From positions 29,466,464-29,530,463 of the forward strand of contig NC_083582.1 of the NCBI RefSeq assembly GCF_027579695.1: 64,000 nucleotides of DNA, written 5' to 3'. Every line of letters begins with the position of its first letter. The stretch's first letter is position 1. A program made the translations under genes and the position numbers. Positions 7,030 to 59,798 of this stretch are shown here, piece by piece. Source of the stretch: Neoarius graeffei (Eukaryota; Chordata; Actinopteri; Siluriformes; Ariidae). Under the pieces are notes generated by a model. That model was not told where the DNA came from. It made no database searches and saw nothing but the letters and a program-made list of their open reading frames with translations.

Positions 7030-8614
7030 GGCCGGGGAGCCGTCCGGCCTGAAGCTGACTTCCCCCCCCCGACGGGACAGGAAGTCCGTCACCACCATCT
7101 GCACCCCCGGCCTGTGGATCACCTCGAACTTAAATGGCTGGAGGGCGAGATACCAACGGGTGGTCCGCATATTGGCATCCTTCATGTGGTGGAGACACTA
7201 GAGGGGCGTGTGGTCCGAACAGAGAGTGAAAGGGCGCCCCGGCAGGTAGTATCGGAGGGCGAGGACCACCCACTTGATGGCAAGACACTCCTTCTCGATT
7301 GTGCTGTACCTACTTTCACGCATCAAGAGTTTCCAGCTGATGTACAGCACTGAACGTTCCTCGCCCTCCACCTCCTGGGACAAAACGGCCCCCAGCCCTC
7401 TGTCCGATACATCAGTCTGCAAAATAAATGGGAGAGAGAAGTCAGGGGAGTGTAAAAGTGGCCCCCCCACACAGTGCAGCTTTTACCTCAGAGAAGGCCT
7501 GTTGGCACTGCTCCATCCACTGGACCGGATCTGGAGCCCCCTTTTTAGTGAGATCGTTTAGCGGGCTGGTGACATCCAAATAATTAGGTAGAAACCTACA
7601 ATAATAACCAGCCAGCCCCAAGAACCGTTTCACCTCCTTTTTGGTCTTGGGCTTCGGGCAGGCTGCAATTGCTGTGGTCTTGTTAATTTGGGGACGCACC
7701 TGCCCATGGCCCAAGTGGAACCCTAGATACCATACTTCCACCCACCCAATCGCACACTTTTTTGGGTTAGCTGTGAGGACCGCTCGCCTCAGTGACTTTA
7801 GAATGGCCCTCAGGTGTTCCAAGTGCCGCGGCCAATCATTACTGTAGATTACGATGTCGTCTAGATAGGCGGCCGCGTAGGCAGCGTGAGGGCAGAGGAC
7901 CCTGTCCATAAGCCGCTGGAATGTAGCAGGTGCCCCAAACAACCCAAAAGGGAGCGTGACAAATTGGTGTAATCCAAACGGTGTGGAAAATGCCATTTTC
8001 TCTCAGGATAGAGAAGTCAAGGGGATCTGCCAATATCCCTTTGTTAGATCTCATGTTGAATAAAAGCGAGCAGTGCCTAACCGATCAAGCAACTCATCAA
8101 TGCAAGGCATTGGGTATGCGTCAAATTTAGACACTGCGTTGACCTTTCTATAGCCCACACAGAACCAGACCGACCCATCGGTCTTGGGAACCAGGACCAC
8201 TGGGCTGCTCCAGTCACTGTGGGACTCCTCAACTATGCCCATTTCGAGCATGGCCTTGAGTTCGTCCCGAACCACCTTTTTCTTGTGTTCGGGCAAGTGG
8301 TAAGGGCGGCTATGCACTACCACTCCTGGGGTCATTTCGATGTGATGTTCTATGAGGTGGGTACGACCAGGAAGGGGCGAGAACACGTCTGAAAATTCTT
8401 TCTGCAACTTGGCAACCTCCGTGAGTTGGGCTAGTGAGAGGTGGTCTCCACAAGGGACCGGAGTGGTCCGAGATGTTATCTTTTTTACCTCCGGCCCCAG
8501 CTCCACCTTCTCTGGGACTACCGATGCCAACGCCACGGGGACCCCCTCATTCCAGCGTTTTAAAAGGTTGAGGTGGTAGATTTGCAGTACCCCATCCCTA
8601 TCCATTTGCTTCAC
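7030..8614 (-). pseudogene. Reverse transcriptase - RNase H region of the LTR element
   Basis: In order on the minus strand: linker ending RTHLIEHHIEM..., RT block SDWSSPVVLVPKTDGS and CVGYRKVN, motif A DLTKGYWQIPL (8050-8010, preceded by an in-frame TGA), GLFGAPATFQRLMD, the catalytic AYLDDIVIYS, then RNase H with LQTDVSDRGLGAVLSQ and STIEKECLAIKW. The frame continues through PLQWLHHMKDAN..RWYLALQPF to about 7030. At least two stops (around motif A and before MAFSTPFG) and a frameshift near 7450-7470 disable it. Confidence 0.88.
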
Positions 8615-12159: not shown

Positions 12160-12180
12160 ACATGTTTGTGGAAGTGTGTC

Positions 12181-13203
12181 ATGGCACGAACAAAGGAGAT
12201 TTCTGAGGACAACAGAAAAAGCATTGTTGATGCTCATCAGGCTGGAAAAGGTTACAAAACCATCTCTAATGAGTTTGGACTCCACCAATCCACAGTCAGA
12301 CAGATTGTGTACAAATGGAGGAAATTCAAGACCATTGTTACCCTCCCCAGGAGTGGTCGACCAACAAAGATCACTCCAAGAAAAAGGCGTGTAATAGTCG
12401 GCAAGGTCACAAAGGACCCCAGGGTAACTTCTAAGCAACTGAAGGCCTCTCTCACACTGGCTAATGTTAATGTTCATGAGTCCACCATCAGGAGAACACT
12501 GAACAACAATGGCATGCATGGCAGGGTTGCAAGGAGAAAGCCACTGCTTTCCAAAAAGAACATTGCTGCTCGTCTGCAGTTTGCTAAAGATCATGCGGAC
12601 AAGCCAGAAGGCTACTGGAAAAATGTTTTTTGGACAGATGAGACCAATATAGAACTTTTTGGTTTAAATGAGAAGTGTTATGTTTGGAAAAAGGAAAACA
12701 CTGCATTCCAGCATAAGAACCTTATCCCATCTGTGAAACATGGTGGTGGTAGTATCATAGTTTGGGCTTGTTTTGCTGCATCTGGGCCAGGACGTCTTGC
12801 CATCATTGATGGAACAATGAATTCTGAATTATACCAGAGAATTCTAAAGGAAAATGTCAGGACATCTGTCCATGAACTGAATCTCAAGAGAAGGTGGGTC
12901 ATGCAGCAAGGCAACGACCCTAAGCACACAATTCGTTCTACCAAAGAATGGTTAAAGAAGAATAAAGTTAATGTTTTGGAATGGCCAAGTCAAAGTCCTG
13001 ACCTTAATCCAATCGAAATGTTGTGGAAGGACCTGAAGCGAGCAGTTCATGTGAGGAAACCCACCAACATCCCAGAGTTGAAGCTGTTCTGTACGAAGGA
13101 ATGGGCTAAAATTCCTCCAAGCCAGTGTGCAGGACTGATCAACAGTTACCAGAATCATTTAGTTGCAGTTACTGCTGCACAAGGGGGTCACACCAGATAC
13201 TGA
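12181..13203 (+). CDS. Tc1 transposase, full-length ORF with a lost catalytic aspartate
   Basis: The 340-aa frame starts MARTKEISEDNRKSI and ends GGHTRY. It has the paired helix-turn-helix DNA-binding domain (residues about 1-110, with the GRPTKIT-type AT-hook between) and the DDE domain: D153 in WTDETNIELFG and E279 in NPIEMLW. Position 244, normally the second Asp (QQDN), is Gly here (QQGN; codon GGC at 12910..12912). The protein could still bind TIRs but should not catalyse cutting. The LTR element sits only 21 bases upstream of the ATG. A longer in-frame start at 12166 is not the family start. Confidence 0.9.
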   Translation: MARTKEISEDNRKSIVDAHQAGKGYKTISNEFGLHQSTVRQIVYKWRKFKTIVTLPRSGRPTKITPRKRRVIVGKVTKDPRVTSKQLKASLTLANVNVHESTIRRTLNNNGMHGRVARRKPLLSKKNIAARLQFAKDHADKPEGYWKNVFWTDETNIELFGLNEKCYVWKKENTAFQHKNLIPSVKHGGGSIIVWACFAASGPGRLAIIDGTMNSELYQRILKENVRTSVHELNLKRRWVMQQGNDPKHTIRSTKEWLKKNKVNVLEWPSQSPDLNPIEMLWKDLKRAVHVRKPTNIPELKLFCTKEWAKIPPSQCAGLINSYQNHLVAVTAAQGGHTRY

Positions 13204-24277: not shown

Positions 24278-27200
24278 TTAAGGTAAGGATGAGACAGGCA
24301 CTGGAACAAAGCCATGATATAGCATAAGTGGAGGTGCATTCACAACTTCTACAGATTGCGCCCGTGGTACAGACCCATCAAGTGACTGAACTGGCAGTTG
24401 GACATAACTTCCTGTCTCTGGATCAAAGAAGGTTTTTGTCTTCACCTGCACTGGCATGTCCACCACAAAGTACTGTCCAGAATCAAGATCCTGCAGAAGC
24501 TTCCTTTGGGTTATTGGGAAAGATTGTGGTACAATGTTGTTTGCTGGAGAGCCATAAGTTTGCTCAATGCTGTTTTGTCGCAGTGGTGCTATCTGTGCAA
24601 TGTCCAGTTTGTTTAATGTCTCAGTGGTAGTTTTAGAGACAGGCTCTTCAGAGCTAAGTAACTGATGCCTTTGTTTGCCACTTGAAAATCTGTCCAAACT
24701 GTGAGCCCTGCGATACAGCTTATGTGGTAGGTATTTTTCACTAGTACGTCCCAATCTCTCATGGTCAACATTTATATTATGGGTATCACACTGATCTTTG
24801 TGTTGTGATCGATTTTCTTTTTGCTTTTCAGCCACTGAGCTCTTTGCATCATCATCCGTATTGATTAGACTGCTATGACGTTCATGTTGTAGTTTCCTTA
24901 CAATATCTTTCTCTTTCCTACGGCTGTTTGGTTTATTATGTTGTGTAGCATGTGTTTCACTTGTGTGACTCTTTAGCAGAGACGTCTCACTGCTGTTTGC
25001 CCCCGTGCTTTGATTACTGCTACCTCTGTCAATGCTATGCTCTCGTTGGTATGATCTGTCAGTGAGAACTTTGTCACAACTGTGGTGCCTCCTCTCACGT
25101 TTCTGACAAGAACCCTTCGAACCCTTCTCACTGCTTCGGCCACGCTCTGATTTATTTTTAGCTTCCACTTTCTGGATCCTCTTTGTTGTCAGCTTCATGG
25201 CACGACGCAAGGCTTTCTCAGTTTTTGGAGGGACAGCAGGTGGCTTGCCCTGAACCTGGTTTTCAATGCCACTGCAGGCTGATTCAGATCTCTCACTTGG
25301 TGCTTTCGATCCCACTATGCTATCTGTACATGCAGTGTTGAAGGCAAGCTCCCCCACTGTGTCTCCTGCACTCATTTCACAGCTTTCTATTCCCTCTGAA
25401 ACTGAGTATGTTGCCAGTTGCCACTCATCATCTTTTGGCACTGTGGAACTATCCATCAGTCTTGTTTTCTCCTGGTCTGTGGTGGCTTGAGGGGATGGAG
25501 GGGGTGCAACCTGTGTTGATGACTGGTTGATTCGGATAGGTGTGGAGAGCAAAGTTGGACTTTGCACATCCACAAAGTCCTTGAAAAGGTCTGGATCTTC
25601 TTCACCCCTTTCAGACCCACTTAGGCTTTCTTTTGGAGACCAGGGTTGTGTAACTCCTGCAACAGTTTTATGGAGTATGGGTTTTACTGTTTTGGTAACA
25701 GGGGATGCACTAAATGTGTTGTCTTTCACTTTAAATAAAGCAAGTTTCCCCAGTGTGGGAGAAGAGGCATTGGACTGGCATGTTGGTGTTAAATTGTGAG
25801 CTGAGTCTATCAAGCACTGCACCCACCCTCGTTTTTCCACATCTTTTGGAGGAGGAACTGCTATGTCTAAGTTATGCAGTTTACTTTCAGGGTTGCTATT
25901 GGAACAGGAATCCATTTGGTCTAAATTCTCACATTTTCTTTCTTCAGCTTTGCTCAGAGATGATGACTCTTCTGTTTTGTGTGAAAAGGATGAGTCCTCT
26001 GATAGTCTGGAAAGTAGATTGTCTTGTTCTACTTGTTTAATATCTACCAATGATGAAGGATCAGCTTGATTAAGAATGTCATAGAGGATTATCTTATTCA
26101 CTGGAGCATTACCAGGGTTTATCAAATTCAAGGTTGGTGTCTTTTCAGATTCATCATCAGGTTCATCAGATTTCCCCAAATGGTCAGTTAAATACTTTTT
26201 GACAGAGCTTTCACCATGACATTTGGATTTGCTCTGGTTGTCTGTTTTTCTCAAAACACCAGATGCACTTTCATTCTCTGTTTTAGTCACATCTTTTTTG
26301 TCCTCTTCATTTTCTGTGACATATTTGTTAACAGTCTGGATGTCCTGTTTATCACCAATTTCTCCACCTAAATTTGTTTCATTTCCCATGGCTAGTTTTG
26401 AATCATTGTCAGGTAATTCCTTATTGTCTGAATCTGTCTCTCTTGCTTTATGATTATGTTTTGTTAAAATTTCTTCAACTTCAGAAAAATCCATTGTATT
26501 CTTTGGTGAAATTGTTTTTTGCTTTAATAAATCATATCCAGGGTTGACCATGAGCCCGTCTCCCTGACTCAAACATTCTTGGATATTTGAACTTGGCAAT
26601 ACTTGTTCTCTGTTAAATTTTTCCGCAAGTGATGATACATGACCCTTTACTGGTCCTTTATTCTTTGATAGATTAGATTTCTTGACTTCTGTGCTTAAAC
26701 AATCTTCATAATTCACTGATCTCTCAATACTCCCTACAGCTTCTTTTATTTGTCTTTCACTCATTGTGCTGTCTTCTCTTTGGGAATTTACTCTTTCTCT
26801 CCTTGGAGGAGCCTCTGGTTTATAAGAGCCCTTCTTTTTCTGAATAGATGGCTCATTTTCATCAACTCCAGTGAGTTTGTTGTCAAAATAGTCCTGGACT
26901 ACTGAGACTTCTTGACTGAGGTTTAGGTTTTTAGGCACACACACTGTTTCTTTAAATTCAGTTATATTAGCCATTGACTGGATATTGCTTGTGTCACCTT
27001 GTTGACCATGTCTGTCAGATCTGTCCCTATGTACAAGTCTACTTGGGCTGTGCTTTGCAGTACCTTCCTGCTTATAAGGTTCAGCTAATTTTACCTCAGG
27101 CACATGACATTCGTCATGATTGGTGTCGTGATTCTGACCTCGCCTGTCTGGTATAACACTTCCTGATGTTTCCTTCTGACCCAATGTTAGCATACTTTCT

Positions 27201-29902
27201 TTATTGTGGTCTCCTTTCATGGGTAAATCCTGTCCACTTTGCCTATCACTTTGCTTTTTTCTCTGTTCTCTCTCAGCAATCCTTTTCTCCAAAGCCACTG
27301 TGGCTAACTCATATTTATCCTTTACTATGTTATTTTTCTTTGAGCCTAATACTCTATTTGAGGGCTGTTCCTTTAAAGTGAACAGTGCAACTTTTGCTGA
27401 CGTGTTTCCTTTCATAGAAAAAGCATCATTTTTGGCCACTCCTTGTTCAGTGCATATACCCAGATCATTCACCAAGGGTATGTTATAATTATTTTTTGTA
27501 AAGGCATCATTTGTAACACTTTCTTTGATAAATGGTTCATCCACATTTTCCTGTACTTTTCCTTTATCTTTATGCACATCTACATTCAATATCTTCTTTC
27601 TTGGCTCATCCCTTCCAACAGAAATTACATTCTCTTGCCAATATGCACATTCATCATCATTATCATCATTCTCATGAACTACATCCACGTATCTTAGATT
27701 TTTTATGTAATTGTTTTGTCTTGCAGAAAATAAATGATTAGGTTTGGGTTCTTTTCTGTGATATTCAGTATATTTGATAGGTCTTTCCTCTACCTTAAAT
27801 ATTTCTTCCATATTCAATTTGTCTTGATTCCTACTACCTGAAAGTGTTGGGGCATCCTGTTGTGCACTGTGCTTCAATGAAACTGTAGGAACATATTTTT
27901 CCTTCAGAGCTACTGCATCCGTTTTGTCAGTCAGTACTTTGTCTGCAGTCTCAACATGGTTCAGATGGATATATTCATGGTTTGCATTGTTTATTTCTGG
28001 TTTAGTCAAATGACTTTTTCTTTGCAGTTCCTTCCTATTCTTCTCGGGCAAATGTCGTTTGCTCAACTTCTCTTCTGTACTCTTATTTATTGTAGAATGA
28101 GAACCAGGAGCATCCATTGGCATGGTTTTAGTATTGGTATTAGAATTGGTATTCAGTTCTACTGGACTAGATTTCCGGTACAAATTTAAAGATGGATATG
28201 TAGCTTTGGCCAAAGGATTCTTTTTTGATTTCAAAGATTTAATAGGTGAGCCTCTATTTCCAGCTTGCAGTAGACTAAGTCCCAAAAAGTCATCTGGCAG
28301 TGCGCTATTTATATGACCACTGAGTCGAGAGGTTTGTATGTCTGCAGTCTCAGGACTCATTGGATACATACTAGTTTTTTGAACAGTCGATGTGGTTTTA
28401 GAATCTGTAATTTCTGGACTTTCCAGAACATTTTTGGTAACATTCTGTTCAATTAGAGGAGACAGTTTATTTTGGTCTGCTACATCTAAACCTTTAAACT
28501 TTGGTGGGCTGTATGTTGCCTTGACCCGTTTTCGGTTGTCCTTGAGATTAAACAATAAACTTGATGCCTTGGATTTGTATCTTTCTCTTTTGATGTCAGG
28601 TGATGGACGAATATCTGTCTCATGGAGTGCTGGGATATCAAGAGCTGCTGGTGAATGGACAGATTGCAGTATCTCTGAGGTTCCTGTACCCTGTCTGGAG
28701 GGTATGACTGGAGTCAACAGCTGTGAAATACTGAATGGAGTTGAATTTAAGCCAGGTGCTTCTTCCACTGTCTTAACCTCCTTTTTAGTTTGTATTGCAC
28801 CCTCCTCACCAGTGTTTGACTTTTCACAAGCAGGCGAGCTGATAAGTGGTCGATCAGCACCTTTTGCCCTGCTTCGACTTTTCCTCCAGGGAGCATAAAG
28901 ATCCCCTTCAGACTGACACCTCTGAAATGATCCAGAGGACGTCAGCTGCATTTGTGGCTGAAGAGTCTCAATTTGAATGTCAGGCAGTTTCTGGAAATTT
29001 AGCTCAGATGGTTTTTCTGGTACTGGAGGTGCAGTTTTCAAAGTCTGTGCTGAGCATTGTGATAAATCAGGTTTAGATTTATGTTGAGGTTCCATAGGTG
29101 AGGTGCTTTGGCTTGTCTCTCTTTTATTTGACTCTGGTACAAGTAATCTGTTTGAATTGTTTAGCTCTCTGGAAAGTGGGGAATCATACAATCCAGCCAG
29201 ACTATTGCATGGAAACATATCCATGTTCTCCAGTCCAAACCTATTTAAGTCTCCCCAGGACTGGAATGGGCTGAATTCACTGTGAAGGAAAAAGTTTTGG
29301 GGATTCAGTTTTCTCAGCTTCGTGGATTTGCTATGTTGATTTTTAAACAATTTTCCTGATGAATTATCTCTATTCTGGCTTGCCTTATTAAGAGTCTCTT
29401 TCTTAGAAGGCTTACAATGACTCTTGACCTGATAAAGTTGTTCATCCCTGAGGTGGTTTTGATAATCTGAAGAAAAGTCTGATAGCTCTGTTTGGATGCT
29501 AAGCAGTCCTGATTTGTCCCATAAGTCCCCATTTGTCATTTTTGTGTCATTGTTCTTAGCTGCAAATGCGGCAAAAAGTGATGACACCTTTGTGTTTTTT
29601 TTCATTTGCCATGGTGTGTTGTACACACCGTTGGGCCGGTGAGCTCCGTGCTTCTTAACATCCAAGGCAGTGTTCTCTCGAGGCTTTTTTGGTATCTCTT
29701 CAGCTAGAGGCTTGTGACAGTCTACTGGAGATGATAAAAGCTCTGAGTCATTGTAGATTGCCTCATCACCGATGCACAGACTCTTAAATGCTCGGTCTGT
29801 AAGGCTCATAACCTCTCGGTCCGTCTCATCCATAAAGCTATCCAGGTTGGAAGGGTGCTTCATGCTTGCTTTATGACTCACATGTTTCTCCAGGCAGCTC
29901 AT
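24278..29902 (-). CDS. cefip: cefip (C10orf71 homologue), cardiac-enriched FHL2-interacting protein, large single exon
   Basis: A 1874-aa frame begins at the first ATG (29902..29900, MSCLEKHVSHKASM) and ends in ...LYHGFVPVPVSSLP-stop. A GTG 18 bases further up and in frame is not a plausible start, and an in-frame TAG lies at 29950..29948. Conserved landmarks of the C10orf71 family are the N-terminal DETDREVMSLTDRAFKSLCI (about residues 25-46), the basic block VPPKTEKALRRAMKL (about 1555), and the C-terminal GQYFVVDMPVQVKTKTFFDP (about 1809). Most of the chain is low-complexity, Ser/Lys/Glu-rich and probably disordered. The mammalian protein sits at Z-discs, binds FHL2 and affects calcineurin-NFAT signalling. 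The related C4orf54 shares the C-terminal type and is the main alternative. Synteny with tmem273 supports cefip. Confidence 0.82.
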   Translation of the reverse strand: MSCLEKHVSHKASMKHPSNLDSFMDETDREVMSLTDRAFKSLCIGDEAIYNDSELLSSPVDCHKPLAEEIPKKPRENTALDVKKHGAHRPNGVYNTPWQMKKNTKVSSLFAAFAAKNNDTKMTNGDLWDKSGLLSIQTELSDFSSDYQNHLRDEQLYQVKSHCKPSKKETLNKASQNRDNSSGKLFKNQHSKSTKLRKLNPQNFFLHSEFSPFQSWGDLNRFGLENMDMFPCNSLAGLYDSPLSRELNNSNRLLVPESNKRETSQSTSPMEPQHKSKPDLSQCSAQTLKTAPPVPEKPSELNFQKLPDIQIETLQPQMQLTSSGSFQRCQSEGDLYAPWRKSRSRAKGADRPLISSPACEKSNTGEEGAIQTKKEVKTVEEAPGLNSTPFSISQLLTPVIPSRQGTGTSEILQSVHSPAALDIPALHETDIRPSPDIKRERYKSKASSLLFNLKDNRKRVKATYSPPKFKGLDVADQNKLSPLIEQNVTKNVLESPEITDSKTTSTVQKTSMYPMSPETADIQTSRLSGHINSALPDDFLGLSLLQAGNRGSPIKSLKSKKNPLAKATYPSLNLYRKSSPVELNTNSNTNTKTMPMDAPGSHSTINKSTEEKLSKRHLPEKNRKELQRKSHLTKPEINNANHEYIHLNHVETADKVLTDKTDAVALKEKYVPTVSLKHSAQQDAPTLSGSRNQDKLNMEEIFKVEERPIKYTEYHRKEPKPNHLFSARQNNYIKNLRYVDVVHENDDNDDECAYWQENVISVGRDEPRKKILNVDVHKDKGKVQENVDEPFIKESVTNDAFTKNNYNIPLVNDLGICTEQGVAKNDAFSMKGNTSAKVALFTLKEQPSNRVLGSKKNNIVKDKYELATVALEKRIAEREQRKKQSDRQSGQDLPMKGDHNKESMLTLGQKETSGSVIPDRRGQNHDTNHDECHVPEVKLAEPYKQEGTAKHSPSRLVHRDRSDRHGQQGDTSNIQSMANITEFKETVCVPKNLNLSQEVSVVQDYFDNKLTGVDENEPSIQKKKGSYKPEAPPRRERVNSQREDSTMSERQIKEAVGSIERSVNYEDCLSTEVKKSNLSKNKGPVKGHVSSLAEKFNREQVLPSSNIQECLSQGDGLMVNPGYDLLKQKTISPKNTMDFSEVEEILTKHNHKARETDSDNKELPDNDSKLAMGNETNLGGEIGDKQDIQTVNKYVTENEEDKKDVTKTENESASGVLRKTDNQSKSKCHGESSVKKYLTDHLGKSDEPDDESEKTPTLNLINPGNAPVNKIILYDILNQADPSSLVDIKQVEQDNLLSRLSEDSSFSHKTEESSSLSKAEERKCENLDQMDSCSNSNPESKLHNLDIAVPPPKDVEKRGWVQCLIDSAHNLTPTCQSNASSPTLGKLALFKVKDNTFSASPVTKTVKPILHKTVAGVTQPWSPKESLSGSERGEEDPDLFKDFVDVQSPTLLSTPIRINQSSTQVAPPPSPQATTDQEKTRLMDSSTVPKDDEWQLATYSVSEGIESCEMSAGDTVGELAFNTACTDSIVGSKAPSERSESACSGIENQVQGKPPAVPPKTEKALRRAMKLTTKRIQKVEAKNKSERGRSSEKGSKGSCQKRERRHHSCDKVLTDRSYQREHSIDRGSSNQSTGANSSETSLLKSHTSETHATQHNKPNSRRKEKDIVRKLQHERHSSLINTDDDAKSSVAEKQKENRSQHKDQCDTHNINVDHERLGRTSEKYLPHKLYRRAHSLDRFSSGKQRHQLLSSEEPVSKTTTETLNKLDIAQIAPLRQNSIEQTYGSPANNIVPQSFPITQRKLLQDLDSGQYFVVDMPVQVKTKTFFDPETGSYVQLPVQSLDGSVPRAQSVEVVNAPPLMLYHGFVPVPVSSLP

Positions 29903-29950
29903 GGTGAATGTATAATCCACGTATTTCAGACTGATGTCCGTAACATTCTA

Positions 29951-33799: not shown

Positions 33800-35403
33800 C
33801 AACCCCAATTCCAAAAATGCTGGGACAAAGTACAAATTGTAAATAAAAATGGAATGCAATGAGGTGGAAGTTTCAAAATTCCATATTTTATTCAGAATAG
33901 AACATAGATGACATATCAAATGTTTAAACTGAGAAAATGTATCATTTGAAGAGAAAAATTAGGTGATTTTAAATTTCATGATAACAACACATCTCAAAAA
34001 AGTTGGGACAAGGCCATGTTTACCACTGTGAGACATCCCCTTTTCTCTTTACAACAGTCTGTAAACGTCTGGGGACTGAGGAGACAAGTTGCTCAAGTTT
34101 AGGGATAGGAATGTTAACCCATTCTTGTCTGATGTAGGATTCTAGTTGCTCAACTGTCTTAGGTCTTTTTTTTGTCGTATCTTCCGTTTTATGATGCGCC
34201 AAATGTTTTCTATGGGTGAAAGATCTGGACTGCAGGCTGGCCAGTTCAGTACCCGGACCTTTCTTCTACGCAGCCATGATGCTGTAATTGATGCAGTATG
34301 TGGTTTGGCATTGTCATGTTGGAAAATGCAAGGTCTTCCCTGAAAGAGACGTTGTCTGGATGGGAGCATATGTTGCTCTAGAACCTGGATATACCTTTCA
34401 GCATTGGTGTCTTTCCAGATGTGTAAGCTGCCCATGCCACACGCACTAATGCAACCCCATACCATCAGAGATGCAGGCTTCTGAACTGAGCACTGATAAC
34501 AACTTGGGTCGTCCTTCTCCTCTTTAGTCCGAATGACATGGCGTCCCTGATTCCCATAAGGAACTTCAAATTTTGATTCGTCTGACCACAGAACAGTTTT
34601 CCACTTTGCCACAGTCCATTTTAAATGAGCCTTGGCCCAGAGAAGACGTCTGCACTTCTGGATCATGCTTAGATACGGCTTCTTCTTTGAACTATAGAGT
34701 TTTAGCTGGCAACGGCGGATGGCACGGTGAATTGTGTTCACAGATAATGTTCTCTGGAAATATTCCTGAGCCCATTTTGTGATTTCCAATACAGAAGCAT
34801 GCCTGTATGTGATGCAGTGCCATCTTAGGGCCCGAAGATCACGGGCACCCAGTATGGTTTTCCGGCCTTGACCCTTACGCACAGAGATTCTTCCAGATTC
34901 TCTGAATCTTTTGATGATATTATGCACTGTAGATGATGATATGTTCAAACTCTTTGCAATTTTACACTGTTGAACTCCTTTCTGATATTGCTCCACTATT
35001 TGTCGGCGCAGAATTAGGGGGATTGGTGATTCTCTTCCCATCTTTACTTCTGAGAGCTGCTGCCACTCCAAGATGCTCTTTTTATACCCAGTCATGTTAA
35101 TGACCTATTGCCAATTGACCTAATGAGTTGCAATTTGATCCTCCAGCTGTTCCTTTTTTGTACCTTTAACTTTTCCAGCCTCTTATTGCCCCTGTCCCAA
35201 CTTTTTTGAGATGTGTTGCTGTCATGAAATTTCAAATGAGCCAATATTTGGCATGAAATTTCAAAATGTCTCACTTTCGACATTTGATATGTTGTCTATG
35301 TTCTATTGTGAATACAATATCAGTTTTTGAGATTTGTAAATTATTGCATTCCATTTTTATTTACAATTTGTACTTTGTCCCAACTTTTTTGGAATCGGGG
35401 TTG
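33800..35403 (-). mobile_element. Tc1 family 2, copy 1 (nested)
   Basis: Ends CAACCCCAATTCC / GGAATCGGGGTTG with TA duplication. Removing it restores the family-1 sequence CATATACTTTTGCC-like. It has TIRs of about 210 bases with inner copies of AAGTTGGGACA. Confidence 0.92.
34020..35095 (-). pseudogene. Family-2 Tc1 transposase with a single late frameshift
   Basis: It starts [14 protein letters not shown], has the helix-turn-helix pair ([20 protein letters not shown]), and all three catalytic residues: D in WSDESKFEV, D in [11 protein letters not shown] in SPIENIW. The frame shifts at a run of eight T (about 34167-34174, + strand). The normal C-terminus (QEWVNIPIPKLEQLVSSV... VSQW) continues in another frame to 34020. 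A sequencing error in the run is possible, in which case it would be intact. Confidence 0.85.
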
Positions 35404-39288: not shown

Positions 39289-39687
39289 TTGAATGCGAGG
39301 AAGGCGACAAACGAAAAACATAAAAGAAAAAGGAGCGAGATGCAGAAAACACCTTCACTATCCAGCGACGTAGGGCATTTACAGGGCGAGCAGAGGGAGA
39401 GGTATTTGCAAAAATTGAGGTTAGCAGGCTTAGAGAACGACGTTTACCTGCTTCCACCAGGATTGTTCACTGATGTACGGAAGTACACGAAGCCCTCGTC
39501 TTTACCTGACTTCGGCCCACATGATCTGTATACCTATGTCGTTAAAAACCCATCGCCATACACAGGTATTGATCTGAAAGCGTACAAGAGTTTGGATGCA
39601 TACAAATATTTTGTGTCAGGCTGGGTAACATGCCTACATCAGCGGGTCGTCCCTGGAGCCGGTGGTCGCCATCTTATTACAGCTAAG
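39289..39687 (+). pseudogene. Captured first exon of a transposon-associated protein
   Basis: The frame has a basic start (KHKRKRSEMQK), then GHLQGEQRERYLQKLRLAGL, DVYLLPPGLF and YKSLDAYKYFVSGWV, ending at a possible donor AAG|GTTTGT. 'SL.AY.YF.SGWV' is, from memory, the start of fish proteins with a SWIM zinc finger and YqaJ nuclease. No further exons follow in the element, so it cannot make the full protein. Confidence 0.5.
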
Positions 39688-39868
39688 GTTTGTTCACATT
39701 TTCATTTACTTTCGGTCCTCAGGATAAACAAAATGTTATTAAATGTCATTGAAATAACTTCTTAGTCTGTTGAGATATGGCCCGTTATAAATTTGCTGTT
39801 ACCAGGCAATGACCAAGAACTGTATTATTAGGGTCGGTGTCTGTGTTGTAGCAGTGTACTAGCAGCTA

Positions 39869-45732: not shown

Positions 45733-47334
45733 CAACCCCGATTCCAAAAAAGTTGGGATAAAGTACAAATTGTAAATAAAAACGGAATGCAATAATTTAC
45801 AAATCTCAAAAACTGATATTGTATTCACAATAGAACATAGACAACATATCAAATGTCGAAAGTGAGACATTTTGAAATTTCATGCCAAATATTGGCTCAT
45901 TTGAAATTTCATGACAGCAACACATCTCAAAAAAGTTGGGACAGGGGCAATAAGAGGCTGGAAAAGTTAAAGGTACAAAAAAGGAACAGCTGGATGACCA
46001 AATTGCAACTCATTAGGTCAATTGGCAATAGGTCATTAACATGACTGGGTATAAAAAGAGCATCTTGGAGTGGCAGCAGCTCTCAGAAGTAAAGATGGAA
46101 AGAGGATCACCAATCCCCCTAATTCTGCGCCGACAAATAGTGGAGCAATATCAGAAAGGAGTTCAACAGTGTAAAATTGCAAAGAGTTTGAACATATCAT
46201 CATCTACAGTGCATAATATCATCAAAAGATTCAGAGAATCTGGAAGAATCTCTGTGCGTATGGGTCAAGGCCGGAAAACCATACTGGGTGCCCGTGATCT
46301 TCAGCCCCTTAGACGGCACTGCATCACATACAGGCATGCTTCTGTATTGGAAATCACAAAATGGGCTCAGAAATATTTCCAGAGAACATTATCTGTGAAC
46401 ACAATTCACCGTGCCATCCGCCGTTGCCAGCTAAAACTCTATAGTTCAAAGAAGAAGCTGTATCTAAACATGATCCAGAAGCGCAGACATCTTCTCTGGG
46501 CCAAGGCTCATTTAAAATGGACTGTGGCAAAGTGGAAAACCATTCTGTGGTCAGACAAATCAAAATTTGAAGTTCTTTATGGAAATCAGGGACGCCGTGT
46601 CATTCGGACTAAAGAGGAGGACGACCCAAGTTGTTATCAGCGCTCAGTTCAGAAGCCTGCATCTCTGATGGTATGGGGTTGCATTAGTGTGTGTGGCATG
46701 GGCAGCTTACACATCTGGAAAGACACCATCAATGCTGAAAGGTATATCCAGGTTCTAGAGCAACATATGCTCCCATCCAGACGACGTCTCTTTCAGGGAA
46801 GAACTTGCATTTTCCAACATGACAATGCCAAACCACATACTGCATCAATTACAGCATCATGGCTGCATAGAAGAAGGGTCCGGGTACTGAACTGGCCAGC
46901 ATGCAGTCCAGGTCTTTCACCCATAGAAAACATTTGGTGCATCATAAAACGGGAGATATGACAAAAGAGACCTAAGACAGTTGAGCAACTAGAATCCTAC
47001 ATTAGACAAGAATGGGTTAACATTCCTATCCCTAAACTTGAGCAACTTGTCTCCTCAGTCCCCAGACATTTACAGACTGTTGTAAAGAGAAAAGGGGATG
47101 TCTCACAGTGGTAAACATGGCCTTGTCCCAACTTTTTTGAGATGTGGTGTTGTCATGAAATTTAAAATCACCTAATTTTTCTCTTCAAATGATACATTTT
47201 CTCAGTTTAAACATTTGATATGTCATCTATGTTCTATTCTGAATAAAATATGGAATTTTGAAACTTCCACATCATTGCATTCCATTTTTATTTACAATTT
47301 GTACTTTGTCCCAACATTTTTGGAATCAGGGTTG
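45733..47334 (+). mobile_element. Tc1 family 2, copy 2
   Basis: TA-flanked (45731-45732, 47335-47336), ends CAACCCCGATTCC and GGAATCAGGGTTG, same structure as the copy at 33800 in opposite orientation. Confidence 0.92.
46041..47114 (+). pseudogene. Family-2 Tc1 transposase with one premature stop
   Basis: From [14 protein letters not shown] the frame is open to a TGA at 46959..46961 (KREI-stop), then continues in the same frame QKRPKTVEQLESYIRQEW to VSQW-TAA at 47114. The triad D/D/E is present ([23 protein letters not shown]), though WSDES became WSDKS and PDLSP became PGLSP. The truncated protein lacks about 50 C-terminal residues. Confidence 0.85.
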
Positions 47335-50447: not shown

Positions 50448-53400
50448 GTGTATATACAGATATATATATACACCGTGTGGCCCAATTGGCCCAATGGAGC
50501 TGCAAAGAAAGAATGGGAGATGTTTGATCGTGACACAGACCAGGTTCTGGAAGCAGCGATCGCAGGAGATGTGGGGAAGAAGTTCAAGGCCATGGCCTCG
50601 ATCATCTGGAGTATGGGTGCTGATCGCTTCGGAAAGAAAGAACAGAAAGACAGAGTTAACATCCAGCCCAAGGAAAACAGACGGCTGAAGGAGATAGCAG
50701 CCCTTAGAGGCGATCTGAGGAGGCTTAAGAAGGCCTTTCGCAAAGCAATAGCAGATGAGAAATCAGCTCTCTCGGAAATTCGAGCCAGCCTGAGAGAGCG
50801 CATTAAAATCTTGCGCAGAGCTGAGTGTCACCGTAGGGACAGGAAGTGGCGGATGAAGGAAAGGGTAAACTTCACGAAGAACCCTTTCAAATACCTGTCC
50901 AAACTCTTGGGCGACAAAAGATCAGGGGAGTTGAAAGCAACAAAGGAAGAGGTGGAGGAGCACCTTCGTCAGGTCCACAGTGATCCCAGGAGGGAGGTTG
51001 GCTTGGGTGAGATGGAAAGGCTCATTAAACCTGCCGCACCAACTATTCCCTTCGAGACAAAAGAACCGAGCTGGCAGGAAGTCAACAGCTTTCTCAAGAA
51101 GACCAGAGGAAAATCAGCCCCAGGTCCAAACGGCATCCCGTACAATGTCTACAAGCATTGCGAGAGGCTTAGGAAACGACTCTGGAAGCTACTGAAGGTG
51201 GCATGGCGGAAGAACTTCCTTGCTGACGAATGGTTGCTTGCCGAGGGGTGCTTCATCCCTAAGGAAGAAAATTCCGTAGGGATCAAGCAATTTCGTACCA
51301 TCTCACTGCTTAATGTGGAAGCTAAGATCTTTCTAGGGATCCTGGCGAAGAGGTTGACCACCTTTTTGTTGGACAATGGGTATATTGACACTTCAGTTCA
51401 AAAAGGTGGCATGCCAGGGGTATCTGGCTGTCTCGAACACACCAGCGTAATCTCCAAGATCATTGAGGACGCAAAGAGGAACAACGGCAATCTGGCAGTC
51501 CTGTGGCTTGATTTAACTAATGCCTATGGGACGATACCCCATAAGCTAGTGGAGTTGACTCTGAAGACCTATCATATCCCAGAGCGATTCCAGAAGCTCT
51601 TGCAGAACTACTTCGACAGATTTAACATGCGTTTCACCTGCGGAGAATTCACCACGAGTTGGCAGAGGCTAGAGGTGGGCATCGTCACTGGCTGCACAAT
51701 TTCAGTGATTCTGTTTTCTGCAGCGATGAACCTTCTCGTCAAGTCAGCAGAGAAGTTGCGTCGAGGTGCAGTCCTGGCAAGCGGCATGCAGATGCTGCCT
51801 ATAAGAGCGTTTATGGACGACCTCACCATCACAGCAAGATCAGTGCCAGAAGGAAGATGGATTTTGGAGGACTTGATTGAGCTCATAAATTGGGCAAGAA
51901 TGGAGTTCAAACCGGCAAAATCCAGAAGCCTAGTTCTGAAAAAGGGGCGTGTCCAGGAACGATTTCACTTCAAGATTGGAGAGGACATTATTCCATCTGT
52001 CCAAGAAAAACCTGTGAAGTGCTTGGGGAAGTGGTTTAGGTCAGACCTCAATGACAGACAGAGCGTGAAAGAGATGCTTAACCAAGCAGAAACCTGGATG
52101 ACATCTCTGGAGAAGAGTGGTCTGCCGGGTAATTATAAGGCCTGGGGCTACCAACATGGGGTTCTCCCCAGACTGCTCTGGCCACTCCTGGTTTATGAGG
52201 TACCTGTTTCCACAGTGGAGAGGCTGGAGAGGAAGCTGAACACTTACTTGAGGAGATGGTTGGGTGTCCCAAGAAGCTTCTGCTCCATTGGCCTGTACAG
52301 CTCAGGCAGCAAGCTACAGCTGCCAATAACATCGGTGGTGGAGGAGTATAAGGTCGCAAAGATACGGCAGGCCATGATGCTACGAGATAGTAGAGATGAG
52401 AGAGTGCGGCAGGCGGGCATTGTTGTCAGAACAGGCCGGAAATGGTCAGCCAGTACAGCACTGAAGGAGGTGGAAGATCGACTGCATCATGCTGACATCA
52501 TTGGGTCAGTAGCCCAGGGAAAACTTGGGCTGGGTTGCTTCACCAGAACAAGCTGGAACAAAGCCGATCCAAAGGAACGTCGAGGCTTGGTGCAAAGGGA
52601 GCTGCGGAAGGCAGAGGAGGAAAGCCGGCATGTCAAGGCCGTGGCCATGAGCAAACAAGGCAGCTGGACTAAATGGGAGGGAGCGAGGGAGAGAGCTTTA
52701 TCTTGGCGGGACATCTGGAGCATGGAAGGCCACCGGATTAAGTTCCTGTTGCGTTCCACATATGACGTCCTGCCGACTCCATCAAACCTCTACACCTGGG
52801 GAATGGTAGAGAGCCCGAGCTGCAAGCTCTGTGGAAGGACAGCTAACCTAGAGCATGTCCTCTCCTCGTGTCACTCAAGCCTTGCAGACAGGAAGTTCCG
52901 ATGGCGACATGACCAGATCCTCGCACAGTTGGTCGATGGTGTTGAGCAGGCGAGGAAAAAGGCAAGACAGCTTTCCAGGGGGCCTCGCTTCATCCATTTT
53001 GTCAGAGCGGGAGAAAGCTCTGTAGCAGGAGGGAGGAGCAAAGGGGTCCTTGCCACAGCAAGCGACTGGGAGATGCGGGCTGACCTGAAAAAGCAGCTCA
53101 AATTCCCAGAGGAGATAGCCCACACTAGCCTGAGACCAGACATTGTACTGTGGTCTAAAGGTACCAAACAGGTGGTGCTCATAGAACTGACGGTTCCCTG
53201 GGAAGAGAGGATAGAGGAGGCATATGAGCGTAAGCTTAAAAAATATCAAGCCCTCATCCTCGAGATCCAGCATAATGGATGGAAGGCCTGGAACTTGCCG
53301 GTGGAGGTGGGCTGCAGGGGTTTTGCTGGGCGGTCGCTCTGGAGAGCCCTTGGACTGTTGGGAATTGAAGGGTCAGCTAGGAAGCAGCTGGTGGCCAACA

Positions 53401-53462
53401 CCACCAAGCGGGCAGAAGAAGCGTCACGCTGGATTTGGATCCAAAGGGAGGTGCGGTGGTAG
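50448..53462 (+). CDS. R2/Hero-type LINE polyprotein: reverse transcriptase and restriction-like endonuclease
   Basis: About 1000 codons are open from the flanking microsatellite (first about 10 codons are TA-repeat) to TAG at 53462. N-terminal basic helical region; RT with GKSAPGPNGIPYNVYKH, motif A WLDLTNAYGTIPH and catalytic AFMDDLTITA (about residues 455-465). A CCHC-type zinc knuckle follows: CKLCGRTANLEHVLSSCH (about residue 793). The PD-(D/E)XK endonuclease has RPDIVLW ... VVLIELTVPWEE and a downstream K..KY. This arrangement defines the R2/R4/Hero group, which nicks a chosen target and primes on it. The N-terminal zinc fingers expected in a complete protein are missing, so it is 5' truncated. 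The clade (Hero versus R4/Rex6) is not certain. Confidence 0.88.
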   Translation: MYIQIYIYTVWPNWPNGAAKKEWEMFDRDTDQVLEAAIAGDVGKKFKAMASIIWSMGADRFGKKEQKDRVNIQPKENRRLKEIAALRGDLRRLKKAFRKAIADEKSALSEIRASLRERIKILRRAECHRRDRKWRMKERVNFTKNPFKYLSKLLGDKRSGELKATKEEVEEHLRQVHSDPRREVGLGEMERLIKPAAPTIPFETKEPSWQEVNSFLKKTRGKSAPGPNGIPYNVYKHCERLRKRLWKLLKVAWRKNFLADEWLLAEGCFIPKEENSVGIKQFRTISLLNVEAKIFLGILAKRLTTFLLDNGYIDTSVQKGGMPGVSGCLEHTSVISKIIEDAKRNNGNLAVLWLDLTNAYGTIPHKLVELTLKTYHIPERFQKLLQNYFDRFNMRFTCGEFTTSWQRLEVGIVTGCTISVILFSAAMNLLVKSAEKLRRGAVLASGMQMLPIRAFMDDLTITARSVPEGRWILEDLIELINWARMEFKPAKSRSLVLKKGRVQERFHFKIGEDIIPSVQEKPVKCLGKWFRSDLNDRQSVKEMLNQAETWMTSLEKSGLPGNYKAWGYQHGVLPRLLWPLLVYEVPVSTVERLERKLNTYLRRWLGVPRSFCSIGLYSSGSKLQLPITSVVEEYKVAKIRQAMMLRDSRDERVRQAGIVVRTGRKWSASTALKEVEDRLHHADIIGSVAQGKLGLGCFTRTSWNKADPKERRGLVQRELRKAEEESRHVKAVAMSKQGSWTKWEGARERALSWRDIWSMEGHRIKFLLRSTYDVLPTPSNLYTWGMVESPSCKLCGRTANLEHVLSSCHSSLADRKFRWRHDQILAQLVDGVEQARKKARQLSRGPRFIHFVRAGESSVAGGRSKGVLATASDWEMRADLKKQLKFPEEIAHTSLRPDIVLWSKGTKQVVLIELTVPWEERIEEAYERKLKKYQALILEIQHNGWKAWNLPVEVGCRGFAGRSLWRALGLLGIEGSARKQLVANTTKRAEEASRWIWIQREVRW

Positions 53463-54613: not shown

Positions 54614-54677
54614 ATGTGTTCAAATATACTTGACCCTCAAAGACATTACTTTATCATTACATTTGTTTTCATTGTTG
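54614..54677 (+). CDS. tmem273: tmem273, exon 1 (signal peptide)
   Basis: ATG opens MCSNILDPQRHYFIITFVFI-V, a short N-region followed by a hydrophobic core, then one base before a consensus donor (G|GTAAGT), phase 1. The next fitting exon is at 59193. TMEM273 is a small type I membrane protein of unknown role. This exon alone is weak evidence; its support is that phases match and the five exons total 276 bases, exactly 92 codons. The promoter is not identified. Confidence 0.6.
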
Positions 54678-55869
54678 GTAAGTACTGTAATATTCTTCTG
54701 CTTGTTATGTGTCTGGTTTGTTTCACAATGAACAGCTGAGCAGTTACATTATTAAGCAGCGTCATGTAGTTTGCATTTAGACATTTAAGCTCTATAATCT
54801 AGCTTTAGCCTATGTTTTTGTATGAATGATGTATTGTGTATAAAAGGATAACAGATTTAATAAGCACATAATCCAGTGCAAATGATTCATGAGGACTTCA
54901 AAATTTGATTGACTCCATCTGAGGTGCATTGAGGTGCAAATTTTAAGGTGCATCTTTCTTTGAGCCCTAACAGACACATAGCTTATCAAAGAATGACTAA
55001 AAAACACAAACTGGCAGCTATATTTTGAGTGTATTTCCAGACCTATTGAAAAAAAATATTAGGAATGAGCCCTTTACCGGTATGTACATTGTACTCTCAT
55101 GTTCGGCGTAAACATTGCCTCTCAAGGTAATTCATGATGTGAAATTATAATATATGTATAAAAGTGTTGCTGTAACATATGGACCCAAAGAAATTGTATG
55201 GGCAGTAATAATATGATAATTATGTGTTTTCACATAGGAAAGACAAGACTAAATGTTTAATGCCCCAAAAACAAGCTGAGAATAAAAAAGACTGCACAAT
55301 AGACGGCGAATTATAGACTTTGCAGACCAGATAATCACTGAAAGAAATTTGAAATCAAATATTCCAATTTTATTATTCGGTGCAATGGCAGTTTAGTGAT
55401 CAAGTGTCACAGGATTCCAGGATGTCCCGAAAGCCACTGGTTCCTTGATCAAAGCTCTAAACAATTAGCTGTTCAGTAATCTGACTCAGGTCCACTTCTA
55501 ATTTGTTATGGACACAAGTGTCTGATATACAGTGTACTGAATAGTTGCATATGCTTCTTTTAAATTAAATACATGAAAGTTATCCAGGGTGTGATTGTGG
55601 GTCTCTGCCACAAAACAGGACACCAAATTATCACTAGGTGTGAATGAGTGTCACTGTCAATATTTATTTTATTTTATTTATAAATTTTGCTGTTAAAAAT
55701 GGCAGGGAATCCTCAACAGAGCAATAAGCTCCAATATCTGAGGTCCCGCAAAATTACAAAATTAAGTCGTACAATAAATAGATCAACAATAAATAATACA
55801 ATATACAAGTTGGACAAAAAGGTATCAACAGCCTGGGAATATATACAAACTAGTAACAGCACAAGCTGG
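54678..55869. other. tmem273 intron 1, first part, unique
   Basis: AT-rich DNA; I see no exon with matching phase and no recognisable repeat until about 55870. Confidence 0.45.
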
Positions 55870-56117
55870 TGCCAAGGGTGGAGATTGGCTGACATGTATG
55901 ACATTTCACACACACAGATTTAAAAGTCTGTGGTCTGTCGATGTCAAAATAAAGCCTAGTTAAATTACTATAATATGAAAAAAGATCCTACTTAAACTGT
56001 GAAAGTGATTGATTCCTGTTCCTTAAGTGCGGGGGTAAAATGTTCCAAATTCTAGGGCCCCGAATATAAAAACTGGTCTGAAAAGTTAAATTATTAGCCT
56101 TGGGTACATTTAACATA

Positions 56118-57689
56118 TAGTGGTGCTTGAAAGTTTGTGAACCCTTTAGAATTTTCTATATTTCTGCATAAATATGATATAAAACATCATCAGATTTTCA
56201 CACAAGTTCTAAAAGTAGATAAAGAGAACTCAGTTAAACAAACGAAACAAAAATAGTATACTTGGTCATTAATTTATTGAGGAAAATGATCCAATATTAC
56301 ATATCTGTGAGTGGCAAAAGTATATGAACCTTTGCTTTCAGTATCTGTTGTGACCCCCTTGCGCAGCAATAAGAGCAACTAAACGTTTGTGGTAACTGTT
56401 GTTCAGTCCTGCACACTGGCTTGGAGGAATTTTAGCCCATTCCTCCGTACAGAACAGCTTCAACTCTGGGATGTTGATGGGTTTCCTCACATGAACTGCT
56501 CGCTTCAGGTCCTTCCACAACATTTTGATTGGATTAAACATTAACTTTATTCTTCTTTAACCATTCTTTGGTAGAGCAAATTGTGTGCTTAGGGTCGTTG
56601 TCTTGCTGCATGACCCACCTTCTCTTGAGATTCAGTTCATGGACAGATGTCCTGACATTTTCCTTTAGAATTCACTAGTATAATTCAGAATTCATTGTTC
56701 CATCAATGATAGCAAGCCATCCTGGCCCAGATGCAGCAAAACAAGCCCAAATCATGATACTACCACCACCATGTTTCACAGATGGGATAAGGTTCTTATG
56801 CTGGGATGCAGTGTTTTCCTCTCTCCAAGCATAACGCTTCTCATTTAAACCAAAAAGTTCTATTTTGGTCTCATCTGTCAACAAAACATTTTTCCAATAG
56901 CCTTCTGGCTTGTCTGCATGATCTTTAGCAAACTGCAGATGAACAGCAATGTTGTTTTTGGAAAGCAGTCGCTTTCTCCTTGCAACCCTGCCATGCACAC
57001 CATTGTTGTTCAGTGTTCTCCTGATGGTGGACTCATGAACATTAACATTAGCCAGTGTGAGTTTCAGTTGCTAAGAACTTACCCTGGGGTCCTTTGTGAC
57101 CTTGCCGACTATTACACGCCTTGTTCTTGGAGTGATCTTTGTTGGTCGACCACTCCTGGGGAGGGTCACAATGGTCTTGAATTTCCTCCATTTGTACACA
57201 ATCTGTCTGACTGTGGATTGGTGGAGTCCAAACTCTTTAGAGATGGTTTTGTAACCTTTTCCAGCCTGATGAGCATCAACAACGCTTTTTCTGAGGTCCT
57301 CAGAAATCTCCTTGTTCATGCCATGATACACTTTCACAAGCATGTGTTGTGAAGATCAGACTTTGATAGATCCCTGTTCTTTAAATAAAACAGGGTGCCC
57401 ACTCACACCTGATTATCATCCCATTGATTGAAAACACCTGACTCTAATTTCACCTTCAAATTAACTGCTAATCCTAGAGGTTCACATACTTTTGCCACTC
57501 ACAGATATGTATTATTCAATCATTTTCCTAAATAAATAAATGACCAAGTATAATGATTTTGTCTCATTATTAACTGGGTTCTCTTTATCTACTTTTAGGA
57601 CTTGTGTGAAAATCTGATGATGTTTTAGGTCATATTTATGCAGAAATATAGAAAATTCTAAAGGGTTTACAAACTTTCAAGCACAACTG
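56118..57689 (-). mobile_element. Tc1 family 1, copy F
   Basis: TIRs TAGTGGTGCTTGAAAG and CTTTCAAGCACAACTG with TA flanks (56116-56117, 57690-57691). Confidence 0.9.
56338..57324 (-). pseudogene. Tc1 transposase, copy F, inactivated
   Basis: It has the same stop at codon 3 as copy A (CGA to TGA), a small frameshift/deletion near 57065, a deletion of about 30 bases removing the EWPSQSPDL region near 56540, and Lys for the third catalytic residue (NPIKMLW). D153 (LTDETKIELFG) and D244 (QQDND) remain. Confidence 0.85.
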
Positions 57690-57859
57690 TAGTTGCCCTG
57701 GACTGATCTAATCGCCTAGTAAACCTTCTAGGTACACTGATAGAAATATTAAGGTCTGTTGACATTGACTTGAAAAGATAAACAAGGTCCAGGTACTCAT
57801 GCCAGTAACACATGGGAAGGAGTCCTAGCTTTAACAGTCTATCCTTGTAGTTAACATCT

Positions 57860-57940
57860 GATCTGAACGTCTCTCTCTCATGTGTCTTGCTTGTTTCTCT
57901 CTCTCTCTCATGTGTCTGTCTCTCTCTCTCTCTCTCTCTT
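57860..57940. repeat. (TC)n-rich microsatellite
   Basis: Imperfect TCTCTC runs interspersed with CATGTGTC units. Confidence 0.8.
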
Positions 57941-58400
57941 TGGCTCATTTCTCTCGTGTGTCTCTTTGGATTACAAAGTTGTCCACTAGATGTGAGGATA
58001 CCTGTAATGGACTAGTCAAGGTGTATTTTTTGCCTCACATCCACTGTTCCTGGGATCCCCAGCCACCCTGACAAGGAAAAAAAAAATGCTTACTAAAATG
58101 AATAAATGACCAAAAGTTATCCAGATTAATTAAGTAATTCATCATTAATACAGTTTGTGGAAAAATGTTGCCCTGGTAGTATTGGGTTAAATACACCAGA
58201 CAGAAGAGGCAATGTATTACCAAGAGTACCGAAAAATAAAATACTAAAATCAAAACCATCAAAGTGTGTTAAGTAGCAGAACATATCAGTGACCTTATCT
58301 CAGTTCTCAGTTCCACTTTGGATTTAAAAAAAACAACCTTCCTGTTCTTGTCAAAGTGTCTGTAGAGCAACTTAACTTAAAAAGTGATAAACTGCAAGTA

Positions 58401-59079
58401 TCACTGTAAAAAAAAAAAAGTTATGCCAACTTAAAAATTCAAGGCAACTTACTGCACAGGATTTTTGAGTTTATGTGACAACTAAGATTTTTAAGTTTTG
58501 AAGAAAGTTGTGCTAACTTATACTTTTGGTCTTCATATTCACACAAACTTATTTTTCTCAGTTTTACATGATAAGAATTCAACTTTAAGGCCACTAATCT
58601 TTCATCCAAGTAAAAACTTCAAAATTTGAGTTCAATTTTCTTTTTATCCCACAATAAAACAAATAACAATCCAGTTCAAATAGCATGTTGATTTTAACAT
58701 GATGGTAGCAAAACTGCTATAAAACTGTAGTGGCAGTGCTTTTTTGTTAAGTCACACATTCACTTATTTTAAGCCTGAAGCTAATTTGACAAACGAAATG
58801 TGCAAACAATTCAGTATACTGAATTGTTTGCACATTTCGTTTGTCAAATTAGTTTTTACTTGGATAAAAGATTAGTGGCCTTAAAGTTGAATTCTTATTA
58901 TGTAAAACTGAAAAAAATAAGTTTGTGTGAATATGAAGGCTAAGTTATCTGAGACCAAAAGTATAAGTTGGCACAACTTTCTTCAAAACTTAAAAATCTT
59001 AGTTGTCACATAAACTCAAAAATCCTGTGCAGTAAGTTGCCTTGAATTTTTAAGTTGGCATAACTTTTTTTTTACAGTG
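58401..59079. mobile_element. Fold-back element with asymmetric arms
   Basis: Ends CACTGTAAAAAA and TTTTTTACAGTG. The outer arms (58402-58620 and 58850-59079) are inverted copies, and the inner arms meet at CAGTATACTG (about 58812-58821). The left side holds about 170 extra bases (58621-58785) with no partner on the right. It ends about 110 bases before tmem273 exon 2. Confidence 0.85.
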
Positions 59080-59192
59080 TACACACACACACACAGAGCA
59101 CCGAATGCAACTTATGATTCATGATCTTATTTTTTTTAATGTGCCTTAAATGACAATAATGTAATGTAATTTGGAAAATATCTGTGTTTTAG

Positions 59193-59240
59193 GCACACTT
59201 ATCATCCATATAAGAGGAGATGACCAGTCCCAGGAACCAG
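59193..59240 (+). CDS. tmem273: tmem273, exon 2 (short extracellular segment)
   Basis: Acceptor TGTGTTTTAG|GC and donor CCAG|GTAAGT enclose 48 bases, phase 1 on both sides, coding TLIIHIRGDDQSQEP. The human protein likewise has only a short acidic ectodomain before the membrane span. Confidence 0.7.
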
Positions 59241-59422
59241 GTAAGTGAAACAGCTATAGATTGCTGATATTCATTCCACTGATATACAAAACCATGCATT
59301 TTATCAGTCATTCTCATACTGTAGGTTGCATCATATATAATTACAGAAGGCTACAATGCATCCAATTATATCCTTATTTTTTACACTATTACTTATCTCT
59401 CTTAATTTCCTTTGAGCCTCAG

Positions 59423-59533
59423 AACTGAAATATGCAGCAATTGGAATAGGGGTTGGTTTATTTCTCTCCATCTGCTTCCTTGCAATAAAGATATGCATGA
59501 TTAAAAGACATATTCTGGACAATGGACAGTCAG
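59423..59533 (+). CDS. tmem273: tmem273, exon 3 (transmembrane segment)
   Basis: Acceptor TTTGAGCCTCAG|AA, donor TCAG|GTAAGC, phase 1 to phase 1. It codes (E)LKYAAIGIGVGLFLSICF followed by LAIKICMIKRHILDNGQS. The span and the juxtamembrane block KICMIKRH closely resemble human TMEM273 (recalled as FKYALIGTAVG ... LALKICMIRRHLFDD). This is the exon that identifies the gene. Confidence 0.82.
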
Positions 59534-59634
59534 GTAAGCTCCACACCATACACACCATAAAGGGCATATTTTCCCTCTAACAATTTTCTGTCTACTATTC
59601 TCCAAGCTCATCTTAAAATGTCTTGTTTTTTTAG

Positions 59635-59659
59635 AGGATTCAGCAAGAGTATTTACAAG
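59635..59659 (+). CDS. tmem273: tmem273, exon 4 (cytoplasmic)
   Basis: Acceptor GTTTTTTTAG|AG, donor ACAAG|GTAAGC; 25 bases, phase 1 in, phase 2 out, coding EDSARVFT. A strong pyrimidine tract supports the acceptor. Confidence 0.7.
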
Positions 59660-59770
59660 GTAAGCAGTTATTTATTTATTCAACTGTTTATCTACATAAT
59701 TATAGATTATATTTATAATTACACTTTCATACATTATTACACTTTCATAAGTATATTTCTTTCCTTGTAG

Positions 59771-59798
59771 AAGTATTGATGCTGAAAGCAGGACCTGA
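59771..59798 (+). CDS. tmem273: tmem273, terminal exon
   Basis: Acceptor TTTCCTTGTAG|A completes the split AGA codon, then SIDAESRT and TGA. The predicted fish protein (91 aa) is a little shorter than the human one (about 105 aa). No AATAAA is obvious in the next 150 bases. Confidence 0.7.

Follow-up and report, generated by a model that had tools for sequence, protein, structure and literature searches.

Exon anatomy of tmem273

The window analyzed here is a stretch of 64,000 nucleotides from the catfish Neoarius graeffei (positions 29,466,464-29,530,463 of contig C14; positions below are counted within the window unless a contig is named). A reading of the letters alone, referred to below as the sequence-only reading, had proposed that it contains a tmem273 gene of five exons on the forward strand. 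When these exons were joined and translated, the proposed anatomy was reproduced throughout: the exons measure 64, 48, 111, 25 and 28 bases, all introns are GT/AG with phases 1,1,1,2, and the 276 nucleotides make 92 codons, which specify 91 amino acids and a stop. The translated product of 91 residues reads MCSNILDPQRHYFIITFVFIVGTLIIHIRGDDQSQEPELKYAAIGIGVGLFLSICFLAIKICMIKRHILDNGQSEDSARVFTRSIDAESRT. Exon 1 (54614..54677, +) opens with the ATG, encodes a hydrophobic leader in 21 codons plus one base and ends in the donor TTG/GTAAGT. It is followed by exon 2 (59193..59240, +; donor CAG/GTAAGT) and by exon 3 (59423..59533, +; donor CAG/GTAAGC), which carries the predicted membrane helix and a KICMIKRH block. 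Exon 4 (59635..59659, +) has the donor AAG/GTAAGC, and exon 5 (59771..59798, +), with the acceptor TTTCTTTCCTTGTAG, supplies the in-frame stop. GTAAG opens all four donors. Ranked with a weight matrix built from textbook frequencies, the donors of exons 2-4 are among the best 0.3% of the 3747 scored GT sites in the window, and that of exon 1 is among the best 1%.

The hydropathy of the product peaks at 2.47 over residues 46-64, a segment that leads directly into KICMIKRH. The hydrophobic leader would probably serve as a signal peptide, to be followed by a very short outer part, a single membrane helix at about residues 41-66, the basic border KICMIKRH and, on the cytoplasmic side, a short tail. 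With this leader, one helix and a basic border, the product would be a small membrane protein of type I. We infer this topology from hydropathy and the positive-inside rule; the leader may instead stay uncut, and the protein would then have two helices.

Family match and genome-wide search

Compared with profiles, the 91-residue prediction reaches 48.4 bits on Pfam family PF14986 (DUF4514), where the cut-off is 27, in agreement with the name TMEM273 that had been given to it. Exon 3 translated alone scores 46.7 bits (E 3.7e-12). Exons 2 and 3 joined, including the split codon 75, score 49.3 bits, and exon 1 alone has no match to PF14986. The match stops at the first, split codon of exon 4. We take PF14986 to be the TMEM273 family, a lead that rests on a provisional human TMEM273 sequence; this sequence scores 135.3 bits over the full profile. 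Residues 15-75 of the fish protein align with it without a gap, with 26 of 61 positions identical (43%), and the human KICMI(K/R)RH motif is lined up in that alignment. Together with the hydropathy peak, this agrees with the resemblance of the membrane segment and KICMIKRH to human TMEM273 that had been noticed from the sequence. The alignment takes in the end of exon 1, covers exons 2 and 3 entirely and stops at codon 75, which is split between exons 3 and 4. As no gap interrupts it at residues 22 and 38, where the exons meet, it supports the first two exon joints. Since the human sequence is provisional, the alignment is to be read as a lead; the gene order described below is independent of it.

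A six-frame profile search of the whole genome (2.34 Gb, 38 contigs) returned four PF14986 matches at E <= 10, and only exon 3 of tmem273 exceeded the cut-off (45.4 bits, E 2.1e-8). The DNA of exon 3, used as a query against the genome, likewise gave a single match. The sequence-only reading had named an orthologue elsewhere in the same genome as a finding that would count against it; none was found above the cut-off.

The strongest of the three remaining matches, C9:46197225-46197368, was rejected as a second tmem273. It scores 22.8 bits (E 0.26) in the genome-wide search and 23.8 bits (E 5.3e-5) when scanned alone, both below the cut-off, and it has an internal stop and no intron at the place of the tmem273 intron. 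The best ungapped score of exon 3 in the 10 kb around it is 16, at a different place, and in the surrounding 50 kb, searched as five stretches, no match to the tmem273 neighbours cefip, vstm4 or lrrc18 is better than E 0.6. The C9 stretch is probably a chance match, although it may be a very old, decayed copy of tmem273. Both matches on C13 were also rejected. The first (20.0 bits, E 1.75) contains a stop and has no visible likeness to the family. The second (C13:35593610-35593711, -; 18.4 bits, E 5.71) is open, reads EIDDYLKVKLIGSALGVLVEMGFMAL and resembles the start of the family, with a stop directly after and no KICMI block; at E 5.7 it is probably a chance match, although it may be a remnant.

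Comparisons of the protein with other families and structures added no further candidates. Six further Pfam matches at E <= 10, DUF3923 and TMEM164 among them, all lie under their own cut-offs, and the two matches to solved structures (E 0.76 and 1.4) were taken as noise. The term DUF4514 was absent from the literature searched.

Gene order on C14 and C7, and the surrounding repeats

Neighbouring genes past the tmem273 stop were taken among the listed open frames of at least 70 amino acids without copies nearby. From low to high coordinates, the order on C14 is cefip (-), tmem273 (+), vstm4 (+) and lrrc18 (+). The divergent neighbour cefip (C10orf71-like) is represented by a very large coding exon (24278..29920, -; 1880 amino acids), within which PF15232 (DUF4585) matches at 89.8 bits near the C-terminus (residues 1801-1872 of 1880). 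DUF4585 occurs at six places in the genome, all above the cut-off and C14 cefip among them, and the gene can therefore not be identified from this domain by itself. On the other side, a V-set exon (+; 45.9 bits) lies 11.7 kb past the tmem273 stop (7527-7982 of the flanking stretch examined), and a leucine-rich-repeat gene (+; LRR_8, 54.4 bits) lies at C14:29589312-29590076. From their sequences we take the former to be vstm4 and the latter lrrc18, the domains alone being insufficient. We likewise take C10orf128 to be TMEM273, and human TMEM273 and C10orf71 presumably lie on divergent strands, which agrees with the arrangement in the fish. In line with the former assumption, one report places C10orf128 and C10orf71-AS1 around a variant and has TMEM273 in the adjacent column (PMC9925380). 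The gene list of a human 10q11 deletion includes, in this order, WDFY4, LRRC18, MIR4294, VSTM4, LOC100506733, FAM170B, C10orf128, C10orf71, DRGX, ERCC6 (PMC7217839). The order of the four genes lrrc18, vstm4, tmem273 and cefip is identical in the fish and in this list (FAM170B was not looked for in the fish), and cefip stands where the sequence-only reading had expected it from human gene order (PMC7217839).

A second block of these genes lies at C7:52426572-52495415 in mirror orientation to that on C14. Here lrrc18, vstm4 and cefip keep the order and the relative strands that they have on C14. The C7 block differs from that on C14 in that an OAR-domain gene follows cefip (C7:52495362, -), none being listed on C14 at E <= 0.001, and in that no trace of tmem273 is found between vstm4 and cefip. 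Judged by its place, the OAR-domain gene is probably drgx. The C7 copy of cefip is 31% identical to that on C14 over 725 residues and 57% over 105 C-terminal residues; the vstm4 exon (C7:52463988-52464371, -) is 50% identical over 129 residues, and lrrc18 (C7:52426572-52427303, -) is 52% identical and the second best of 44 matches. The vstm4-cefip gap on C7 (11,828 bases) was searched for a tmem273 remnant, and this reading was rejected: the best ungapped score there is 12, lower than in any of 10 mononucleotide shuffles (14-22), whereas the real exon scores 183.

The repeats and the duplicated blocks fit a ray-finned fish. The simplest reading of the two blocks is a whole-genome duplication after which each lost different genes, and tmem273 appears to have survived it in a single copy. 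In full, this reading has tmem273 retained on C14 alone and drgx on C7 alone, with cefip, vstm4 and lrrc18 persisting as two strongly diverged copies; it is possible but in our judgment somewhat doubtful. Of its two losses, that of tmem273 from C7 has the better support. No OAR match on C14 is among the 17 listed at E <= 0.001. The C7 match itself, with an E of 9.4e-4, is close to that threshold, and a copy on C14 might fall just short of it, which makes different losses less probable.

Intron 1 of tmem273 (54678..59192, +; 4515 bases) is rich in repeats. It had been described as 4.5 kb long with a LINE, a Tc1 and a fold-back element, of which the length, the Tc1 and the fold-back element stood up to analysis; the LINE is tentative, the piece compared with Pfam having had no match. 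The Tc1-type transposon copy (56116..57691, +) has terminal inverted repeats of about 216 nt and three long matches in the window, at 90.4-92.5% identity. The fold-back (palindromic) element (58402..59079, no strand assigned) has arms of 122, 93 and 39 nt that are 99%, 95% and 97% complementary, respectively, and its outer arms agree at 89% over 243 columns in a gapped alignment. On the two flanks of the Tc1 copy lie a LINE-like tail beyond the insertion (55650..56115, -) and a LINE-like fragment (57692..57900, -); for the latter, a Pfam comparison of positions 57691-57897 gave no match at E <= 0.01. Both stretches are labelled LINE-like tentatively, from their translation.

Other mobile elements were observed elsewhere in the window. 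An open frame of 345 amino acids at 12166-13203 (+) encodes a Tc1/Sleeping Beauty-type transposase with HTH_SB, HTH_Tnp_Tc3_2 and DDE_3 domains and is a relative of the intron 1 copy. Another Tc1-type transposase is present as two open frames at 34142-35095 (-) and 46041-46961 (+), identical at 158 of their first 170 residues, and the former carries DDE_3 and HTH domains. A retrotransposon frame of 1004 amino acids is open at 50448-53462 (+), about 1.2 kb before exon 1 (RVT_1, 70.7 bits; zf-RVT below its cut-off). Finally, an open frame of 158 amino acids at 39289-39765 (+) has no Pfam match at E <= 10; similar stretches may occur in fish repeats.

Orthology of tmem273 and its alternatives

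We hold with near certainty that the gene is the ray-finned fish orthologue of TMEM273 (C10orf128), composed of five exons, whose predicted product is a small membrane protein with a single pass. The coordinates, structure and name given by the sequence-only reading are all upheld. The prediction is sound and the result ordinary, a vertebrate gene already known that lies in a fish where it would be expected. Several observations nevertheless weigh against this reading. Among 14 control genomes, the PF14986 search had one match under the cut-off, in E. coli. The acceptors stand out less than the donors: those of exons 2, 3, 4 and 5 rank in the top 36%, 4%, 19% and 5% of the 3984 AG sites in the window, so that two of the four are unremarkable. 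Within 1500 bases after exon 3, eight candidates for exon 4 were found including the reported one, six of which share the same donor, and two alternatives have the donor and frame of the reported exon and start farther upstream. Exon 5 is supported by a good acceptor and an in-frame stop, without homology, and exon 1 by its start codon, donor and hydrophobicity, with homology for its last residues only, via the provisional human sequence. Exons 1 and above all 5 rest on splice signals and not on homology.

The alternative that survives best is that tmem273 is real but that its exact model differs, through a different first or last exon or through alternative splicing. We consider this unlikely, though worth keeping in mind. 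Exons 1 and 5 are short and lie outside the profile, and the seven other exon 4 candidates would offer room for variation, although they come from a loose filter in which acceptors were not scored. The choice of exon 1, on the other hand, is narrow: when the 10 kb before exon 2 was filtered for open stretches of 25-250 nt with an ATG, phase 1 and a donor score >= 4.3, only two candidates were found, and the second encodes 9 residues within a retrotransposon reading frame, leaving the reported exon 1 as the sole strongly hydrophobic one. The gapless alignment of residues 15-75 with the provisional human sequence and the near-consensus donors also argue for the model as given.

A decayed gene whose frame was kept by chance in a repeat-rich region is far less probable. 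Mobile elements have inserted in intron 1, and the profile score is much below that of the provisional human sequence, as might be expected of a pseudogene; however, 91 codons are read over five exons without a stop or frameshift, all four donors retain GTAAG, and the genome holds no other copy above the cut-off. The chance assembly of unrelated short open stretches is hardly credible: a reader who knows the target can choose short exons freely, but exon 3 needs no choosing. It scores 46.7 bits alone, is the best match genome-wide at E 2.1e-8, and sits where the human gene order predicts (PMC7217839); for exon 3 the two profile searches refute chance.

With orthology to TMEM273 as the preferred reading, we infer transcription, splicing and a role in the cell for the fish gene. 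As a best guess, the product would act as an accessory membrane protein, small and of type I, perhaps in blood or fat cells. In print, TMEM273 appears in a table of genes differentially expressed in mouse lung immune cells (PMC7358008), in a lung-cancer risk score (PMC8980838) and among genes whose expression is lowered by PDK4 overexpression in sheep adipocytes (PMC12742214); the passages cited give it in gene lists without a mechanism. Among the literature matches listed, judged by titles and the openings of abstracts, no study of fish TMEM273 was found.

The tmem273 result alone changes no open question. What it adds is a fish orthologue, with conserved neighbours, for a little-studied human gene, and an indication that genes made of exons of 25-111 bases can be found by combining a short profile with gene order. 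The fish gene itself could have escaped existing annotation, all of its exons being short. Between the fish protein and the provisional human sequence, the membrane helix and the KICMIKRH border have been kept while both ends were free to vary: human TMEM273 has 105 amino acids as compared with 91 in the fish, and the N-terminus and the tail both lie outside the alignment. The two are alike in their family profile, in the single membrane helix followed by KICMI(K/R)RH, and in their place between VSTM4 and C10orf71.

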